64,000 nucleotides of DNA from Sulfurovaceae bacterium (GTDB taxonomy: Bacteria; Campylobacterota; Campylobacteria; Campylobacterales; Sulfurovaceae), in the NCBI GenBank assembly GCA_028715055.1, contig JAQTLE010000003.1, forward strand, positions 62,001 through 126,000. Reading direction: 5' to 3'. Under the pieces are notes generated by a model. It worked only from the letters and a program-made list of their open reading frames with translations. It was not told the origin of the DNA and did not search any database. Shown here piece after piece: positions 27,450 to 63,077 of the stretch. Every line of letters starts with the position of its first letter. Position 1 is the stretch's first letter. The translations under genes were made by a program, and so were the position numbers.

Positions 27450-28087
27450 CAATAGAAGCCAATGATTTGGAACATTATTATGGGACAGAACTTATACTCA
27501 AAGGCATATCATTGTCAATTAAATCTGATTCATTTACTGTCATTGTAGGCGAAAGCGGTAGCGGGAAGACTACATTGTTATCGGTTTTGTCAACATTGCT
27601 CCGCCCGACATCCGGAAGCATTAGATATGATGATAAAAATATTTATAATATTGACAATATTGACATATTCCGTCGTAATTCCATAGGCTTTGTTTTTCAA
27701 TTTCATTATCTAATATCTTATTTATCCCTAAGAGAAAATATATCATTGGCAGTTTTAGATAAATATAAACATAGCGTTGATCCTCTTATGAATCAACTTG
27801 GAATATCACATTTGACTAAACGATATAGCGATGAAGTTTCTGGAGGCGAGAGGCAACGGGCCGCCATAGCAAGGGCATTGATAAATAGACCTAAAATCGT
27901 TTTTGCGGATGAGCCTACCGGCAATCTAGATACTAAAAATGCAATTGGTGTTTATGAGTTATTTAGACAATTTAGAAATGAAGGAATTGGTTTTGTGGTG
28001 GCATCACATGATAAAAAAATACTTGAGTATGCAGATTGCATTATAGAAATGGAGGATGGGCATGTTAAACAAATTACTCAAAGATGA
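27446..28087 (+). CDS. ABC transporter ATP-binding protein (LolD-like)
   Basis: A 213-residue nucleotide-binding subunit. Walker A GESGSGKTT (residues 35-43), Q-loop in FVFQFHY, signature VSGGERQR near residue 130, Walker B VFADEPTGNLD near 150 and switch His in VASHDKK are all intact. The TGNLD ending of Walker B is typical of the LolD/MacB/FtsE class, matching the upstream permease. It overlaps the next gene by 26 bases, pointing to tight translational coupling. Confidence 0.92.
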   Translation: MTIEANDLEHYYGTELILKGISLSIKSDSFTVIVGESGSGKTTLLSVLSTLLRPTSGSIRYDDKNIYNIDNIDIFRRNSIGFVFQFHYLISYLSLRENISLAVLDKYKHSVDPLMNQLGISHLTKRYSDEVSGGERQRAAIARALINRPKIVFADEPTGNLDTKNAIGVYELFRQFRNEGIGFVVASHDKKILEYADCIIEMEDGHVKQITQR

Positions 28088-29606
28088 ATTGCCATTATTG
28101 TTTGTTTGGTTGATTATAGGATTAATATCAGGAATTGTTTATGCTTTTGCAAGAGCAGGCATTATTGTTCCACAAGTTCTTTTAACGCCGGTTGTTGCAA
28201 GGTCGCTACATATTTCACAAATGCTATATGGATTTTTTCCTCTAGTATTATCTCTTTTGCCTTTTGCAATATTTGAAAAGGATGGAGTATTGAGTTCGAA
28301 TGCCGTTTTGAATCTTCGCAGATATTTTGTATTGTGGAATATGTTTTTGCTATTTATGACAATGTCACTTTTGTTTGGCAATCAAAGAGGGCTTCCGTTT
28401 TACGATTTTCCTTATACGCTTAATTTTTTATTAGCATTTAGTGGATTTTTTTATATATTGGCACTTATTGATGCGGTCAAAGCTTACGAGAAGCTTCCTT
28501 TATGGGTTATAGTATCTTTAGCTGTGGTAGTAATTGCGCCGATATTGCTTGTGGTTTTGATGAATCCAGATTTTGGTCAAGTAGAAAAAACTCTTGTTGG
28601 CCCTCATGGTGACAATACGCTTGGCATGAGCTTCGCATTAATTCCGATATACTATCTTATTATAAAACTAGTATCTCCAAATTCATTTAAACCAAGATAT
28701 GCATGGTTATGGATATTGCCATTTGTCGGATACATAATTTCTTTGATTATAAGAAATTTTTTTCATTCGCTTAGTTATAACGAAGAATGGTTTTTCCAAT
28801 ATTTGACATTATTTTATTTGCCGTTACTGTTGATATGGCTAAGAGATAGTGGGCTCAAATGGCATCATAATCCTTATCTTGTTTTATCAATAGCGGCATT
28901 CTTATTTGTAGATTTGGAAGGTAATATTTTATTTATACCACAGATCAGGACATTGATTCATCGCAATGATCTAGTAGTGGGGCATGCACATATTGCTATG
29001 GGCATAGGCGTAGCTTTTATGGCGTTATCCATAGCATCTTATCTGCTACCTTCTATTTTTCGTCGCATTTACGCTTTTTGGTATTTTTTGACAATGTTGC
29101 TTATGGCATTTGCGCTTACTTTAGCCGGATTAGTAGAGGGAGGTTTTATTTCCGGAAATATTGAATTTTTTATGATAGTCCGTGTGATTTTTGGCATAAT
29201 AGTATTTATGCTTATATTGCATATGATCTTAAATACATTTGTTCTTGACATGCGTTCCAAGATGCAGCTTTATCATATTGCAGGATTCATTAGCGATGCA
29301 CTCGGCGGAATAATACTTATAATTGCTGGCGGATTTATATTTTCATTTTTGGGATGGAAGTTTGATCATGCATATATATACGTTATTTTTGCATTTATGA
29401 TCGGAACAGGAATAATTCATCTATTTGGATACATTTACAACTCTTCACTGCTAGGCATGATTAGTGCGCTTGTTAGATTGCTTGTATCATCAATGTTTAT
29501 TTCTTTATATATGGCGCATATGTTAGATGGGTTAGCTCTTGCTGTAGGACTATATGATGGGCTTTTCGCTTTAATTTATTTATTGTATTTAAGAGATATT
29601 AAATGA
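28062..29606 (+). CDS. Heme-copper-oxidase subunit I-like membrane protein, divergent
   Basis: A 514-residue polytopic protein with about 12-14 membrane segments. Its histidines recall subunit I of cbb3 oxidases and NO reductases: His50 in SLHISQMLYGFF (segment 2), His182 in GPHGDNTLGM (like the cbb3 YGHNAVGF), and His308/His310 in VVGHAHIAMG (the two-heme segment 10). The position matching the CuB His pair seems to be Phe233-Phe234 (NFFHSLSYNEEW, compare HHLHYTALPDW), so copper binding is doubtful; a separate His268-His269 exists. NnrS-like heme proteins are an alternative. ATG 28062 is 6 bases after ggagg. It overlaps both neighbours. No other oxidase subunit is near. Confidence 0.55.
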   Translation: MLNKLLKDELPLLFVWLIIGLISGIVYAFARAGIIVPQVLLTPVVARSLHISQMLYGFFPLVLSLLPFAIFEKDGVLSSNAVLNLRRYFVLWNMFLLFMTMSLLFGNQRGLPFYDFPYTLNFLLAFSGFFYILALIDAVKAYEKLPLWVIVSLAVVVIAPILLVVLMNPDFGQVEKTLVGPHGDNTLGMSFALIPIYYLIIKLVSPNSFKPRYAWLWILPFVGYIISLIIRNFFHSLSYNEEWFFQYLTLFYLPLLLIWLRDSGLKWHHNPYLVLSIAAFLFVDLEGNILFIPQIRTLIHRNDLVVGHAHIAMGIGVAFMALSIASYLLPSIFRRIYAFWYFLTMLLMAFALTLAGLVEGGFISGNIEFFMIVRVIFGIIVFMLILHMILNTFVLDMRSKMQLYHIAGFISDALGGIILIIAGGFIFSFLGWKFDHAYIYVIFAFMIGTGIIHLFGYIYNSSLLGMISALVRLLVSSMFISLYMAHMLDGLALAVGLYDGLFALIYLLYLRDIK

Positions 29607-30568
29607 ATTTATTGACATTGGTACTTAGTTCACAGCTTTTATATTATCTATTGATAGTACAAACTGGTGTCGTAGGTTTTTTTAACTCAAACGTGCATGA
29701 TCTGTATACATTGCCGATCGGCGGTGTCCTTGGCGGCATCGCAAGCGCGATACTAAAACACAACCTGCCCAAAAATGAACTTTTAGTGCTTTTTGGTATA
29801 CAGATTGCAATATCTTGTTTTTATCCTCATTATTCTTTAGGAATAATATTTGCCTTAGGATTTGTAGTCGGTTATACTACACCGATTTTGCTCTATGTAT
29901 TTCGATTGCAAGATCCATTGCAGCTAGTGCTTGGATTGGGGCTTTCGTATACAATTGGTACGGCATTGTATACTTATCCATATCATGATAGAGATATTAT
30001 CGCCGTTTTATTACCGTTTATATCAATGATATCACTTTTATTTGTTCCTTATTTGGCAATGGAAGAACGAAGATTAGAGCCATTTGATCGGCTGGTATTG
30101 ATTATGATGATGCTTTATATATTTTTAGATTCGGCACTATTTGAAACTCTTAGCAGGTCCAGGGATATGGATATATGGAGTAGCAATACACTTATAATTA
30201 TTATATTTCATCTTGCGGGATTGGTTGCTGCATATTTAAGACGAGGTTCTTTTATGTCTCATACAAGCACGGTTTTATTATTATTTTGTTTATCATATAT
30301 TTTATATTTGACGAAACAACCACTATATTTATCCGTTGTTTATCCATTTACTATTTCATATTATAATTTTATTGTATTTTATAAAGTTATGAAATACACC
30401 CAGATTCAAAATATAGCATTCACTATGGTTGGAATGGGTTGGTTTGCAACCTCGATTGCGGAAGGCATCGCCTTAGAGCATAAGCTGTGGATGGCTTTTG
30501 TGGTAATGATCATTTTTAGTTTATATTATTTTAGGAGAAATTATGAAAAAAATAAGTCTAATAGCTAA
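29603..30568 (+). CDS. Polytopic membrane protein of unknown function
   Basis: A 321-residue protein that I do not recognise. It has roughly ten hydrophobic segments, short loops and few conserved-looking polar residues; SNVHDLYTLPIGG near residue 30 and TYPYHDRD near residue 128 contain histidines that could bind a cofactor. There is no signal peptide cleavage site. It overlaps the preceding oxidase-like gene by 4 bases and the following YceI gene by 26 bases, so it is clearly part of the operon and probably acts with the oxidase-like protein. Confidence 0.6.
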   Translation: MNLLTLVLSSQLLYYLLIVQTGVVGFFNSNVHDLYTLPIGGVLGGIASAILKHNLPKNELLVLFGIQIAISCFYPHYSLGIIFALGFVVGYTTPILLYVFRLQDPLQLVLGLGLSYTIGTALYTYPYHDRDIIAVLLPFISMISLLFVPYLAMEERRLEPFDRLVLIMMMLYIFLDSALFETLSRSRDMDIWSSNTLIIIIFHLAGLVAAYLRRGSFMSHTSTVLLLFCLSYILYLTKQPLYLSVVYPFTISYYNFIVFYKVMKYTQIQNIAFTMVGMGWFATSIAEGIALEHKLWMAFVVMIIFSLYYFRRNYEKNKSNS

Positions 30569-31076
30569 TCTAGTTTTTTTATTAACATGCGCAAATGGCG
30601 CGACTTTGTCTTTTGAATCAGGCATTATTAGAGCACATACAGAAGTGTTTGGTGATAATAGTATAGACCCTGCATTTCATAAAGCAACTTCACAATTGAC
30701 AATCGCAAATGATATATCTTCCATGAGGGGTATTATAAGTGTTAGTATAAAAAACTTCGTTAGTGATAATGACGAAAGAGATTCACATATGAGAGAAGCC
30801 ATGGAAGAAAATTTATTTCCAAAAGCATCTTTTAATGTAAAAGAAGTATTGGCAAATGGCGGAGATAACTACACGCTTAAAGGCGATATGACAATACATG
30901 GTGTAACAAAGCCTATGACATTTGCGAGTACTATTTCACAGAATGGTAACAATATTCACATTAAAGCCAAACAATCTATGAAAATGTCAACATTTGGCAT
31001 TAAACCGCCAAAACTATTAATGCTCACAGTTAGAGATCAGGTAGATTTATTTATAGATGTTTTGTTAAAAAAATAA
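30543..31076 (+). CDS. YceI-family exported protein
   Basis: A 177-residue protein with an N-terminal signal peptide (MKKISLIANLVFLL, cleavage near residue 19) and a YceI lipocalin-like domain. Typical motifs are SFESGIIRAHTEV, RDSHMREAMEENLFPKASF and GDMTIHGVTKPM. YceI proteins bind isoprenoid chains such as polyprenols or quinones in the periplasm. ggagaa precedes the ATG. As the last gene of the ABC/oxidase-like operon it suggests a lipid or quinone cargo, which is inference. Its 3' end overlaps the convergent MBL-fold gene by 40 bases. Confidence 0.85.
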   Translation: MKKISLIANLVFLLTCANGATLSFESGIIRAHTEVFGDNSIDPAFHKATSQLTIANDISSMRGIISVSIKNFVSDNDERDSHMREAMEENLFPKASFNVKEVLANGGDNYTLKGDMTIHGVTKPMTFASTISQNGNNIHIKAKQSMKMSTFGIKPPKLLMLTVRDQVDLFIDVLLKK

Positions 31077-54674: not shown

Positions 54675-54984
54675 AAACCCAATAAACAATCAACTACTTA
54701 CTAAGCAGATATTTATAAATTATAAATATCTGCTATATAAAAATATTACATTTTATTCACACTTTGTTTCTATACTTATGATATAATCATTCTGCGTGCC
54801 CATAAAAAATGGACTTTAGCCAACTACTTAGTCAATCAAGGCAGCAGTTAAGTTTAAAGAATTATAAAAATATTTTATTAAAAAATATTTTTATATTTTA
54901 ATACAAACTTAACAAACATGGAATAAACTTTTAGCGTGGGAATTAGTTTCCCTTACAAAATATCAAGCTTTAAAGGAGGATTTT
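54675..54984 (+). promoter_or_regulatory. 310-base regulatory gap before the bd-like oxidase operon
   Basis: No gene is seen. It holds the sulP terminator-like hairpin (54704-54734), a TATAAT-like box in tatgatataatcat near 54780, AT-rich inverted repeats (aaaaatatttt near 54870-54895) and a short hairpin gggaa/ttccc (54938-54952) in the likely 5' leader, 33 bases before the ATG. The decamer caactactta occurs twice (near 54691 and 54820). Strong ribosome site aaaggagg precedes the ATG. Confidence 0.4.
54704..54734. terminator. 14-bp hairpin after sulP gene
   Basis: agcagatatttata / tataaatatctgct, perfect 14-bp stem with a 3-base loop, 30 bases after the sulP stop. There is no clear T run, so efficiency is uncertain. 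Confidence 0.5.
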
Positions 54985-56337
54985 ATGGAAATGTTAGGGC
55001 TTTATCCAGTCTTTTATGTTCCGAATATTGGTACGGCATGGCTCATGGGATTGACAGGGGTGATGCATGTACTTTTTTCTCATACATCTGTTGGTGCATC
55101 TATATTATTTGCATTTTTGGCATATAAAGCGTATCATGAAGATAGACCAGAACTATATTATTATATGAAGAAATATGGTATATTTTTACTTGTATTCTCA
55201 TATGTTATGGGTTCAATTACAGGACCTGGGATTTGGTATACGGCAACCGTTGCAAGCCCAAGAGGCATAAGCTCATTAATTCACAATTTTGTGTGGGTAT
55301 GGGCTACTGAGTGGGTTTTCTTTATATATGAGGTGGTTGGCGTATTTGCGCTTGTTTATTTTATGGATAAAATTGATCGTAAAACCCATCTCAAATTAAC
55401 TTACACTTTTGCTATTGCATCGGTCGGTACATTGGCACTAATCGTTGGTATCATAAGCTTTATGATGTGGCCAGGTAATGATGCATATTACAATACCGGT
55501 TCTGTTAGTGATGCATTTTTTGGCATTAACACATTCCCACATATGTTCCTAAGAATTGGATTTATGGTCATGATGTCAGGAATAATTGGTATGGTAATCT
55601 CTAGTGCAATGAAAAAAGAAAATCCAGCTCTTGGTGTAGAGATGACCCAAAAGATGGGAATTATAAGTATGATCGGTGGGTTTATTACAATGTTGTTTTT
55701 TATGTGGTACATACTTGCTTTGCCAGAAAATGCACATGCACTTATGGGTAAATTACTTCCAGGCATAATAATGAATCGTATTATACTTACTGTTTTATTT
55801 TCAGTTTATTTTGCAATAGCTATCTTCAGACCAAAATGGATTAATAAAAGTCTAGCTTCTGTAATGGTGTTGGTAATTTTGATATTTGGATTGTGGCCAG
55901 GCGAAAAACTTAGAGAGTCTCTGCGTAAACCATATATCGCGGGACATTACATGTATAGTAATCAAATCATAGGCAGAGATGTCCCTGGTAAGGGTATCAA
56001 AAATGAAGTTCCTTTGCTTGCTGCTAAAGGATATCTAAAATTAGATCCATGGGTACCAACAAGACTTCGTACTATAACCCCAGAGAACAAACTTGAAGTT
56101 GGCAGAATGCTTGCAATAAGAGCGTGTTCAAATTGCCACTCACTTGAAAAAGACGGTCTATACAGACCTATTGTTGTATCAATTCGTATAGCTAATTTGA
56201 AAGATGCAGAGTCTATTAAGGGATATATGAAAAATGTAATCGGCACAGGATCTATTCCTTATATGCCAAAAATTGCTTTGCCAGATAATGAATATGATGC
56301 GATAGCTACATATCTCGATGTGCAAGCTAATAAATAA
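54985..56337 (+). CDS. Cytochrome bd-superfamily subunit I with C-terminal c-type heme site
   Basis: A 450-residue protein with about nine membrane segments resembling CydA. His28 in LTGVMHVLF matches the high-spin heme ligand region of CydA (LTAMYHFLF), Glu109 and Glu116 in ATEWVFFIYEVV match the conserved acidic pair of a later helix, and His186 in NTFPHMFLR matches the b558 ligand His. The quinol-loop (Q-loop) GRQPW motif is missing. Residues about 365-450 form a cytochrome c domain with CSNCH (381-385) and a likely Met ligand in PYMP (Met427). It may take electrons from a c-type cytochrome rather than quinol, as proposed for the OR-C branch of this superfamily. Oxygen reduction is inferred. 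Confidence 0.75.
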   Translation: MEMLGLYPVFYVPNIGTAWLMGLTGVMHVLFSHTSVGASILFAFLAYKAYHEDRPELYYYMKKYGIFLLVFSYVMGSITGPGIWYTATVASPRGISSLIHNFVWVWATEWVFFIYEVVGVFALVYFMDKIDRKTHLKLTYTFAIASVGTLALIVGIISFMMWPGNDAYYNTGSVSDAFFGINTFPHMFLRIGFMVMMSGIIGMVISSAMKKENPALGVEMTQKMGIISMIGGFITMLFFMWYILALPENAHALMGKLLPGIIMNRIILTVLFSVYFAIAIFRPKWINKSLASVMVLVILIFGLWPGEKLRESLRKPYIAGHYMYSNQIIGRDVPGKGIKNEVPLLAAKGYLKLDPWVPTRLRTITPENKLEVGRMLAIRACSNCHSLEKDGLYRPIVVSIRIANLKDAESIKGYMKNVIGTGSIPYMPKIALPDNEYDAIATYLDVQANK

Positions 56338-56349
56338 AGGAGGTTTCGT

Positions 56350-57549
56350 ATGGATGCAACTATTTTAAATGCACTTAGAGATCCTGCTGGAGTACCTTTT
56401 TACCCAGTAGTTTTTCAGGGGTTATATATTTTGACATGGGCTTTACATATAGCCTTTGTGTTACTATCTCTTGGCAGCATGGGGCTTTCATTATATGGAA
56501 GTACTAAACAAAAAAGCGATTCAAATTGGAAGATTTTGACTCCACATTTGATTCAAGTTGGTAAAATTAGCGTTTCATTGCTTATAGTGCTTGGTGTAGC
56601 ACCACTACTATTTACACAAGTTATCTATGATTCTGGATGGTATGTGACAAATACTCTTTCTGGTGTATGGGTAGTCGCATTTATTTATGCACTTATGATA
56701 GGTTATTTGATGTACTATTGGTATTCTTATGCGAATAAAGCTGGTAAATCAAGCAATACTCTCATAGGCATCATTTCATTTTTAATACTTGTGTTTGCTG
56801 GTATATTAATGCATAATTTTGCAGTAGAATCCATACAGCCAGATAAATGGATGGAATGGTATGCGCCAAATGGTGTAATTGATAATTCAGGGCTTAATTT
56901 TCACATTGATATTATTAGACTTGCATTTATGATTAGCTTAACTATTCCGGTAACCGGTATTTTCTTGCAAAACTATAGTGACTTTTTGAGTACTAGAGAA
57001 GATTTTTCGGTCGATTATATTAGATTCACAAAATCTCTTGGTACAAAAATGGCTATTACTGGTTTACTTATAAGTGCAGTATTGTTTGTAATTTGGATGT
57101 TAAGAGATGGTTTACTTTTCAATCCTTTAATAATAGCTACGATAATATCTGTAGTTATATTGCTTATTATGGCATCAAGAAGTAATAAAAATAGCTATGC
57201 TACTACAGGCATGCTTGTCATTGTTGCACTTTTTATATCAGGAGTTCGTGAATATATTAGATACTCTATAATATCAGGCATGGGTTATGATATTTATAGT
57301 ATTCCTATGAATCTTGAGTGGGAGAGTATTATAATGTTCTTACTGACTTTTGTATTTCTTGGCTTTACGGGTGTGGCATTTATTGCTATTATGGCTTGGA
57401 AAGTCGGTAAAAATGAAGGACTCGTATATGACTGTGATACAAATCCAGTATTAAGAAAATTAGGTTCAGCTACCTTATGGATACTTATTGCTTGGACAGG
57501 TATCTATTTTGTATGGGGTATGTTTACACTGTTTAAAAATTCACTTTAG
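56350..57549 (+). CDS. Cytochrome bd-superfamily partner subunit
   Basis: A 399-residue membrane protein with about ten segments, starting 12 bases after the subunit I gene with its own aaaggagg. It is not a standard CydB: WALHIAFVLLSLG (His33) resembles a CydA-type first helix, and KISVSLLIVLGVAPLLFTQ and SGVREYIRYS are further conserved-looking stretches. His66, His155 and His185 are other possible heme ligands. It should form a heterodimer with the heme-c-bearing subunit. The family is recognised by context and general resemblance only. Confidence 0.6.
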   Translation: MDATILNALRDPAGVPFYPVVFQGLYILTWALHIAFVLLSLGSMGLSLYGSTKQKSDSNWKILTPHLIQVGKISVSLLIVLGVAPLLFTQVIYDSGWYVTNTLSGVWVVAFIYALMIGYLMYYWYSYANKAGKSSNTLIGIISFLILVFAGILMHNFAVESIQPDKWMEWYAPNGVIDNSGLNFHIDIIRLAFMISLTIPVTGIFLQNYSDFLSTREDFSVDYIRFTKSLGTKMAITGLLISAVLFVIWMLRDGLLFNPLIIATIISVVILLIMASRSNKNSYATTGMLVIVALFISGVREYIRYSIISGMGYDIYSIPMNLEWESIIMFLLTFVFLGFTGVAFIAIMAWKVGKNEGLVYDCDTNPVLRKLGSATLWILIAWTGIYFVWGMFTLFKNSL

Positions 57550-60900: not shown

Positions 60901-61797
60901 ATGTCCAAAAGTTCCAAACCAAAACTATTGTGGCTTCAATCAATCACCTGTAATGGCAACACACAGTCATTTTTTACTCTTCCTGATTTTATTGTCCTAA
61001 TGAATAAATTTGAGATTATTTATCATCCTATTTTGAACAGCGGCTATACACTTGCTGATGTTACAAATAAAGATTTAAAATGTGACATACTGATATTAGA
61101 AGGCTCATTTAAACAAGACGGCATGAAAAAAGCAGGTCAAGAGATTTTGGCTACGGCGCAAAAATATGCTAAAAAAGCGAAACATATAATAACGGCCGGA
61201 AGTTGCGCAACTTTTGGAGGTATTTTTAGGCAATATGATAAAAATTCTATAAGCGGGTTTTGTTTCAATGATGACATGATAAATGAGAATTATAATTTAT
61301 TTAGAAAAAAATTAATTTCTATTCCAGGATGCCCTGCTCATCCAAGATGGATAGGAAGTGTACTATCAATGATATTGACACACAGAGCCATACCGTTAGA
61401 TGATTTGCATAGACCGCTTGAAATTTATGGTTATAATGCTCACTCAGGGTGTCCTCGAAGCGAGTATTTTGAATGGAAAATTGATAGCAAAAATTATGGA
61501 TATAAAGAAGGTTGTCTATTTTATGAGTACGGATGTCAAGCTCCTTATACCCATGCTAATTGCAATAAAATACTTTGGAATGAGGTAAGCTCCAAAACCA
61601 GAGCAGGCACGCCGTGCTTTGGATGTACTGAGCCTTCTTTCCCAAAAAAAGATTTGTGGCACACTCCTTCACTTATGGGAATACCGGCATCTATGCCGGT
61701 GGGTATTCCCAGAAGAGCTTATTTGACGCTAGCGGGGATTGCCAAAAGTTTCAGTATAAAACGTCTTAATGAACCTATCATAAAGTATAAAAAATGA
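60901..61797 (+). CDS. hupU: NiFe hydrogenase small subunit, cytosolic H2-sensor type (HupU-like)
   Basis: A 298-residue small subunit without a Tat signal, so it stays in the cytoplasm, unlike the uptake enzyme at 63254. Proximal-cluster motifs: ITCNGN (Cys17, but Asn20 where the second Cys of the usual CxxC would be), AGSCATFGG and PGCPAHP. Medial and distal ligands: HSGCPRS, EGCLFYEYGC, NCNK, TPCFGC. This is the layout of HupU/HoxB regulatory subunits. It overlaps the large-subunit gene by 4 bases. The Asn is discussed separately. Confidence 0.82.
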   Translation: MSKSSKPKLLWLQSITCNGNTQSFFTLPDFIVLMNKFEIIYHPILNSGYTLADVTNKDLKCDILILEGSFKQDGMKKAGQEILATAQKYAKKAKHIITAGSCATFGGIFRQYDKNSISGFCFNDDMINENYNLFRKKLISIPGCPAHPRWIGSVLSMILTHRAIPLDDLHRPLEIYGYNAHSGCPRSEYFEWKIDSKNYGYKEGCLFYEYGCQAPYTHANCNKILWNEVSSKTRAGTPCFGCTEPSFPKKDLWHTPSLMGIPASMPVGIPRRAYLTLAGIAKSFSIKRLNEPIIKYKK

Positions 61798-63077
61798 AAA
61801 TAAAACAGCTTATAGAAAAAATTGAAGGCGAAGCCGAGCTTGAATTTGATTTTCAAAATGGTTTAGTAAATGATGTAAATATAATATTTCCATTATATAG
61901 AGGCATTGAAGATATTTTAAGAGATAGAGAGGCTAGAGATGCATTGGTGATTGCTCCCAGAGTTTGTGGGATCTGCAATCATGCACACCTTATTGCCGGC
62001 GTTAGAGCAATAGAAGATGGACTAAAAAAAGCCGGTATAAATATAAATTTGACCTCAAAAGCGATATCACTTAGAGAATTTACGCTTTCTTGTGAAATAA
62101 TACAAAGTCATATTAAATGGATATATTTAGTAGCGTTGCCGCAATTATCAATTTTAAATCGTATAAAACCGCTTGATAGTTATCTTGCAAAAGCTTCTTG
62201 GTCAAGCAATACAGTGGTAAAAGCAATGTCTATATTTTCAGGACAATGGCCTCATAATAGTTATGCGATACCAGGAGGAGTGAGTTGCGATCCAACGTAT
62301 GAAGAGATCATACATGCAGAAACATTGCTAGATGAAACCATTAGATTTATGGAACAAGAATTTTTAGGCATTAATATAGAGGCTTACATGAAAAATCAAG
62401 AGTTATCGGAATCAAAAGGTGATATTGCGACAATTTGGAATCTGATCAATAAACAAAATATACAGTCAAAGGGTAAAAGCCATAATAGATTTATAGCATT
62501 TGGCGAACACGAAATATTTAAAGCCGGAGAATATAGCCAAAATAGAACGAATGAAATAGATACATCACTCGTAAAAGAACATGAGCAGCCAAATTCCAAA
62601 GCAAAATCTGTAACTTACAATTCATTGTGTTATGAAGTAGGCCCATTGGCTAGAGCAATGCTCGCGAAAAATAATCGCATAATGTCACTATATAATATTC
62701 ATAAAGATAGCAATTTAATTAGAATATACGCCAGGATTGATGAGATGATAAATTTGTTATTATATGCAAAAAAATTACTTGCAAATTTACACCCAAAAGA
62801 ACTTTCATGCACATTGTCTAAATTTCCAAAAGGATTTTCGACAAAAGGAATAGGAGCCGTAGAGGCTGCTAGAGGCTCGCTTATTCATGAAACCGTTATA
62901 AGAGACGGTAAAATAGAAAACTATACAATCATAACTCCCACCCAATGGAATCTTTCGCCTGGAACATCAAAAGAATCCGGCATTGCAATAGAAGCGATGA
63001 AGGGAAGCTCTAGCGCAGAAGAGGCATCTTTCGTGTTTCGCATATTCGACATATGCTCTGCATGTACAACTCACTAA
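61794..63077 (+). CDS. hupV: NiFe hydrogenase large subunit, cytosolic H2-sensor type (HupV-like)
   Basis: A 427-residue large subunit binding the Ni-Fe centre through RVCGICNHAH (Cys58, Cys61) and the C-terminal DICSACTTH (Cys421, Cys424). The protein ends directly at the last His, so the C-terminal peptide normally cut off by the maturation protease is absent, as in H2-sensing HoxC/HupV. Ile replaces the usual Pro in the D-P-C motif. Pairs with the small subunit gene (4-base overlap). Confidence 0.82.
   Translation: MKIKQLIEKIEGEAELEFDFQNGLVNDVNIIFPLYRGIEDILRDREARDALVIAPRVCGICNHAHLIAGVRAIEDGLKKAGININLTSKAISLREFTLSCEIIQSHIKWIYLVALPQLSILNRIKPLDSYLAKASWSSNTVVKAMSIFSGQWPHNSYAIPGGVSCDPTYEEIIHAETLLDETIRFMEQEFLGINIEAYMKNQELSESKGDIATIWNLINKQNIQSKGKSHNRFIAFGEHEIFKAGEYSQNRTNEIDTSLVKEHEQPNSKAKSVTYNSLCYEVGPLARAMLAKNNRIMSLYNIHKDSNLIRIYARIDEMINLLLYAKKLLANLHPKELSCTLSKFPKGFSTKGIGAVEAARGSLIHETVIRDGKIENYTIITPTQWNLSPGTSKESGIAIEAMKGSSSAEEASFVFRIFDICSACTTH

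Follow-up and report, generated by a model that had tools for sequence, protein, structure and literature searches.

Within the cytochrome bd superfamily, the OR-C branch is the one with heme-c motifs: its CydA-like subunit is without the quinol site and carries a C-terminal heme c. This branch was reportedly described by Murali, Gennis and Hemp in 2021 in ISME J. Three branches of the superfamily have been named, qOR, OR-C and OR-N (PMC13189123, PMC10839748, PMC11707229), and the OR-N or CydAA' oxidases of Nitrospirota and Nitrospinota have been proposed to be fed by cytochrome c and to comprise two CydA-type subunits (PMC10839748, PMC12342949). The bd branches without a quinol site have been predicted from sequence only, and no biochemical work on any OR-C enzyme was found in the papers searched.

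The gene pair considered here, subunits A and B, was found in a 64 000-nt stretch of a Sulfurovaceae contig (this whole stretch being referred to as the window) from a genome of 1.76 Mb. Subunit A (54985-56337, + strand) encodes 450 aa, with an eight-helix membrane domain of predicted CydA fold and a C-terminal cytochrome c domain, while subunit B (56350-57549, + strand) encodes a ten-helix, CydA-like second subunit of 399 aa without a cytochrome c domain. Both are intact, adjoining ORFs, exactly where a preliminary description of the window had placed them, and B starts after a gap of 12 nt from the stop of A. AAGGAGG ribosome sites, called strong, precede both ATGs (54973-54979 for A and 56337-56343 for B). 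Chance ORFs or fragments were ruled out by the invariant residues, by synteny and by matches of both proteins to relatives at up to 78-80 % identity.

A scan of named genome contigs identified 188 confirmed relatives, and the best 80 loci of the 188 were used for gene order. These best 80 belong to Campylobacterota (Sulfurovum, Sulfurimonas, Sulfuricurvum, Sulfurospirillum and Arcobacter), Pseudomonadota (Burkholderia, Paraburkholderia, Thiomonas, Hyphomicrobium, Beijerinckia, Achromobacter, Hydrogenophaga, Thiomicrorhabdus, Halothiobacillus and Alcanivorax) and Verrucomicrobiota (Methylacidimicrobium), with 46-78 % identity to A. B was located directly after A in 78 of the 80 loci, the exceptions being L111 and probably L137, in which the contig ends too early. 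The two-gene unit of the preliminary description is thus borne out both by the two ORFs and by their constant neighbourhood. We interpret A-B, with a probability of roughly three in four, as a cytochrome c-fed oxygen reductase, a heterodimer belonging to the cytochrome bd superfamily. This reading draws on fold, residue mapping, gene order and distribution; the analysis itself shows that the two genes form a unit, that their models have CydA folds, how their residues correspond to those of CydA, which topology the charge rule gives and how the pair is placed relative to genes for bc1 and small cytochromes c.

The AlphaFold2 model of A had a pLDDT of 85.9, and its top 10 Foldseek matches were all CydA. 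Alignment with VIA-align matched residues 11-328 of A to residues 2-462 of E. coli bd-II CydA (7ose_A) with a Z of 28.1 over 313 residues (rmsd 3.1) and gave a Z of 27.6 with Geobacillus CydA (5doq); over the CydA chains as a whole, Z was 24.8-28.1 for 308-318 residues with an rmsd of 3.0-3.9. The resemblance to CydA had been proposed on the understanding that a predicted structure lacking this fold would overturn it, and the fold was found. In Pfam searches, A matched PF13442 (E 8e-5) and PF01654 (E 0.003; 16.6 bits, below the cut-off of 26.2), with relatives from the A family reaching 40.6, 33.7, 31.9, 28.4 and 28.3 bits against PF01654 at the same cut-off. Profile comparison of A with CydA gave an E of 0.011 with a narrow CydA set and 2e-6 with a broader one, and a sequence search of A against the solved bd structures returned cytochrome c matches only, with no bd match.

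The next structural neighbours of A, well below CydA, were the alternative complex III subunits ActC/ActF (Z 17-18) and PsrC (Z 15), and the model points to the similarity with the ActC/ActF/NrfD fold being a distant resemblance only. These neighbours are relevant to a reading in which A-B is a cytochrome c:quinone oxidoreductase, working in the forward or the reverse direction, with a bd fold that does not reduce O2. For the bd-like proteins of Nitrospira, which are nitrite oxidizers, reverse electron flow and NXR anchoring have been proposed (PMC6606698), and B might offer a quinone site. However, CydA scores far above alternative complex III (Z 28 versus 18), the O2-site residues His28, Glu109, Glu116, Glu311 and Arg314 are invariant, and A-B stands downstream of bc1, which already performs quinol:cytochrome c transfer. 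A quinone oxidoreductase is therefore unlikely.

Eight membrane helices were predicted for A, with positive charges in the inner loops, which places both ends of the protein outside. By this charge rule the heme-c domain would be periplasmic and, since A has no ninth CydA helix, the domain could sit there. The domain itself includes the heme-c attachment motif CSNCH at residues 381-385 (56125-56139, + strand), of which Cys381, Cys384 and His385 (CxxCH) were invariant in 79 of 79 sequences, and a 'YMP' Met ligand at residue 427. Residues 366-450 of the model matched cytochrome c6 structures (Z 6.7). The cytochrome c domain with CSNCH reported earlier at the end of A is in agreement with all three of motif, conservation and fold.

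Conservation in A was assessed in 79 A sequences and five members of a distant branch. His28 (codon at 55066-55068, + strand) was invariant in all 79 and in 5/5 of the distant branch. As the structure alignment starts with residue 11 of A on residue 2 of the E. coli protein, an offset of 9, His28 corresponds to His19, the heme d ligand of E. coli CydA, and the profile alignment gives the same counterpart. Glu109 and Glu116 (codons within 55309-55332, + strand) were likewise invariant (79/79 and 5/5) and are the putative counterparts of the proton-path residues Glu99 and Glu107; Glu116 aligns with Glu107 by profile and Glu109, at offset 10, is displaced from Glu99 by a single position. The likeness to CydA that had been noted at His28, Glu109 and Glu116 therefore stands, with this shift of one residue at Glu109. 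The segment E311-S-L-R314-K-P316-Y317 (55915-55935, + strand) is the apparent counterpart of E445-Y-G-R448-Q-P450-W451 in E. coli. The structure alignment ends with residue 328 of A against 462 in E. coli and against 395 in Geobacillus and, if ungapped there, the E. coli alignment puts Glu311 on Glu445, Arg314 on Arg448 and Pro316 on Pro450; the motif E-x-x-R-x-P-aromatic agrees with this placement of Glu311. As mapped by alignment, Glu311 would match Glu445, the E. coli heme b595 ligand. The A family always has ExxRKP (n=79), the next residue being Y in 58 sequences, W in 15 and F in 6; the distant branch also keeps the motif.

A had also been described as lacking the Q-loop with its GRQPW motif, and the first half of this claim was sustained, the second only in part. 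In the model, predicted TM6 ends at residue 244 and TM7 begins at 248, a link of about four residues that leaves no Q-loop, but the GRQPW site is kept in the altered form given above. His186, which had been put forward as a heme ligand, was not conserved: position 186 was His in 62 and Gln in 17 of the 79 sequences and Ser or Gly in the distant branch, and His186 was consequently rejected as a b558 ligand. No invariant His or Met was found in predicted TM7 of the 79 sequences. Given the variable position 186 and the lack of an invariant His or Met in TM7, a b558 heme in A is unlikely, and so are three heme b/d sites in this subunit; the residue mapping points to two sites plus heme c. His100 was invariant in the family and is replaced by Arg in the distant branch.

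Compared with canonical CydAB (qOR; E. coli 6rko and Geobacillus 5doq), A has the same fold over CydA helices 1-8 and residues corresponding to His19, Glu99/Glu107, Glu445 and Arg448, whereas the Q-loop, conserved b558 ligands (His186 and Met393 in qOR) and the ninth helix are missing and a heme c is present instead. This comparison bears on whether A-B is simply a bd-type quinol oxidase of the usual kind, with the heme c domain as an accessory, as might be expected from the fact that every solved bd oxidase structure found here is a quinol oxidase. With no Q-loop in the model, no conserved His/Met pair at the b558 position and no CydB, this is highly improbable.

No Pfam or NCBIfam family was detected in B, and a sequence search of B against the solved bd structures gave no match. 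In its AlphaFold2 model (pLDDT 90.3), CydA chains scored best (Z 25.4) and outscored CydB in the VIA list, and profile matches were likewise better for CydA (E 4e-5) and for A (E 2e-8) than for CydB (E 0.06). B was therefore rejected as a divergent CydB on both profile and structure; the partner in canonical CydAB is CydB, while the partner here is CydA-like. This is consistent with the earlier view that B is not a standard CydB and has histidines of its own. His33 in TM1 (codon at 56446-56448, + strand), at a structure offset of 14 the likely counterpart of CydA His19, was invariant in 78/78 family members and 5/5 of the distant branch. The segment R300-E301-Y-I-R304 (57247-57261, + strand) can be aligned by motif with the Glu445/Arg448 site; residue 301 was Glu in 78/78 of the family and, in the distant branch, Glu in 1/5 and His in 4/5, and R304 was kept in 77/78. 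No Glu was seen in the sequence of the third helix of B at the Glu99 and Glu107 positions. With His33 and Glu301 kept and these two counterparts absent, B may hold a heme of its own but probably not an O2 site. The predicted heme sites would then be two in A plus heme c, and possibly one in B.

Gene order suggests where the electrons come from. One strand of L199 carries the genes for a Rieske protein, cytochrome b and diheme cytochrome c1, directly followed by A and B and then by a response regulator gene; in L096, from another genus, the order Rieske, cytochrome b, c1, A, B recurs on one strand. Among the 33 loci that are not from Campylobacterota, about half have a small cytochrome c ORF that starts at most 100 nt after B, two of these ORFs matching Pfam Cytochrom_C. 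The bc1 complex was present in 19 of 20 tested genomes carrying A-B or the distant pair. These include the window's own genome, which has bc1 at C1:165628 and cbb3 at C1:136678 and in which no canonical CydA was found. The complete Campylobacterota genome G217 (L193, 7535-10092) contains bc1, CydAB and A-B and gave no heme-copper oxidase match; that genome may have no cytochrome c oxidase other than A-B. Taken together, the bc1 operon linkage, the small cytochrome c genes and the oxidase inventories make a path from bc1 through cytochrome c to A-B the simplest one. The proposal of a bd-type oxidase fed by a c-type cytochrome has thus kept its central part, through fold, mapping and gene order, and lost the His186 ligand and the absence of GRQPW.

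Two small cytochrome c-like genes (98 and ~111 aa) were also seen beside A-B in the Sulfurospirillum-type loci L085, L089, L090, L106, L099 and L102, four of these loci having them downstream on the opposite strand and the other two upstream on the strand of A-B. In L193, A-B adjoins apparent hydrogenase maturation genes.

Heme content, O2 reduction and the direction of electron flow in A-B can be pictured as follows. Electrons from bc1, or from a small cytochrome c in the periplasm, would first arrive at the heme c of A, in its periplasmic C-terminal domain. With neither a b558-type heme nor a quinol site in between, they would then move directly to an O2 site of two hemes, with His28 and Glu311 as ligands, in the membrane domain of A. 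Protons would reach this site from the cytoplasm via Glu116 and Glu109, and B, as a second CydA-like chain, would complete the dimer, perhaps with its own heme (His33, Glu301). If this is true, cytochrome c oxidases can be run in a second way, without copper. With only two genes, A-B is a compact test case that comes with its own heme c, a bc1 operon link, residues to mutate and a prediction concerning N2 fixation at low O2.

A-B is best filed in the OR-C branch, an assignment made by features of sequence and model. The OR-C features present in A are the C-terminal heme-c motif (79/79) and the absence of a quinol site, as judged from the missing Q-loop in the model. Beyond the OR-C definition, A-B has a CydA-like second subunit with a TM1 His and a Glu/His, the ExxRKP motif followed by Y, W or F, linkage to bc1 and co-occurrence with nifD; no earlier description of the B subunit, the donor operon or the nif link was found in the papers searched. 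A-B also resembles the OR-N or CydAA' oxidases, as described in the literature, in the proposed cytochrome c feeding and in having two CydA-type subunits.

A distant OR-C-like pair was found in Campylobacterota and Pseudomonadota (L057, L058, L059, L191 and L192). Its two subunits are homologous to A and B, with profile E values of 2e-56 and 4e-17, respectively; the pair has the same O2-site residues and a C-terminal heme c on its A subunit, but is only ~29 % identical to A and 19 % identical to B. Its B subunit ends in a CxxCH cytochrome c domain (read in L058, L191 and L192), which the window's B does not have, and Arg is found at His100, Ser or Gly at His186 and mostly His at Glu301 of B.

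Upstream of A lies TTAATACAAACTTAACA (54898-54914, + strand), a direct repeat of the form TTAAC-N6-TTAACA with one mismatch, resembling an OmpR/PhoB-type box. Of 45 Campylobacterota loci, 29 had a box with 0-1 mismatch at a distance of 60-113 nt upstream of A, compared with ~5 in shuffles, although many of these 29 loci are closely related and do not represent 29 independent events. The spacing of this conserved 11-bp direct repeat was 6 in 28 of the 29 boxes. Within the window, the pattern occurs once, upstream of A, with 0.33 expected by chance, and so the window copy alone is not significant. An OmpR-type regulator (PF00486) is encoded beside or near A-B in many of these Campylobacterota loci, and a related OmpR-type response regulator adjoins the distant pair in L057. 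The conserved repeat and the neighbouring regulator suggest two-component control, with the OmpR-type regulator as the candidate protein binding the repeat upstream of A.

Such control, and the patchy distribution of the pair, would also fit a stress function, with A-B acting as an NO reductase or as an enzyme for peroxide or O2 detoxification and not as a respiratory oxidase. Canonical bd oxidases do also handle NO and peroxide. This explanation is nevertheless quite improbable, as linkage with the bc1 operon suggests a place in the main respiratory chain and the association with nifD fits O2 better than NO.

That association was seen in an even sample of 298 Campylobacterota genomes, 29 of which had A. 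nifD was present in 25 of the 29 carriers compared with 18 of 269 non-carriers (Fisher P 7e-21), a value inflated by relatedness in an association that is confounded by phylogeny. At the genus level, nifD was present in 11 of 14 carriers versus 8 of 44 non-carriers (P 7e-5). A was present in 9 of 11 genomes examined from the window's genus, which includes Sulfurovum sp. enrichment culture clone C5 (its contig is L060); within this genus, nifD was found in all seven A carriers of at least 89 % completeness and in neither of two genomes without A. In the window's genome, nifD (C3:342362) is 225 kb from A-B. An excess of nifD among Pseudomonadota carriers was not significant (8/33 versus 38/299, P 0.1). 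A Pseudomonadota sample (n=398) contained A only in the Burkholderia genome serving as the sample centre, with a distant relative in two more. In the nifD-positive genome G304, a 131-aa open frame (C1:116843-117073) matched A at its cytochrome c end alone (E 2e-15) and is possibly a remnant of A.

Nitrogen fixation by Campylobacterota has been documented (PMC11474244). A role of A-B in microoxic N2 fixation in this phylum is a lead, not a result, and is weaker than the main reading: under two-component control, A-B might serve as a microoxic oxidase that helps nitrogen fixers to keep O2 low. A more far-reaching version, in which bc1, heme c and the bd-type pair form a self-contained branch with both subunits CydA-like and heme-carrying, dedicated in Campylobacterota to lowering O2 for nitrogenase, is tentative and on balance doubtful. 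Such a branch would correspond, with cytochrome c as the electron source, to the bd oxidase by which Azotobacter protects its nitrogenase.

Other genes were noted in the window. A 516-aa membrane protein (28056-29606) is weakly like heme-copper oxidase subunit I, scoring 21.5 bits with PF00115, for which the cut-off is 34.8, and is followed by an unassigned membrane protein (29603-30568) and, as read by eye, a small YceI-like protein (30543-31076); divergent COX1-like matches of 519-527 aa occur in several related genomes. Genes for the small and large subunits of a [NiFe] hydrogenase are located at 60901-61797 and 61794-63077, and a second hydrogenase small subunit with a Tat signal follows after 63077 and runs off the window end (64000).
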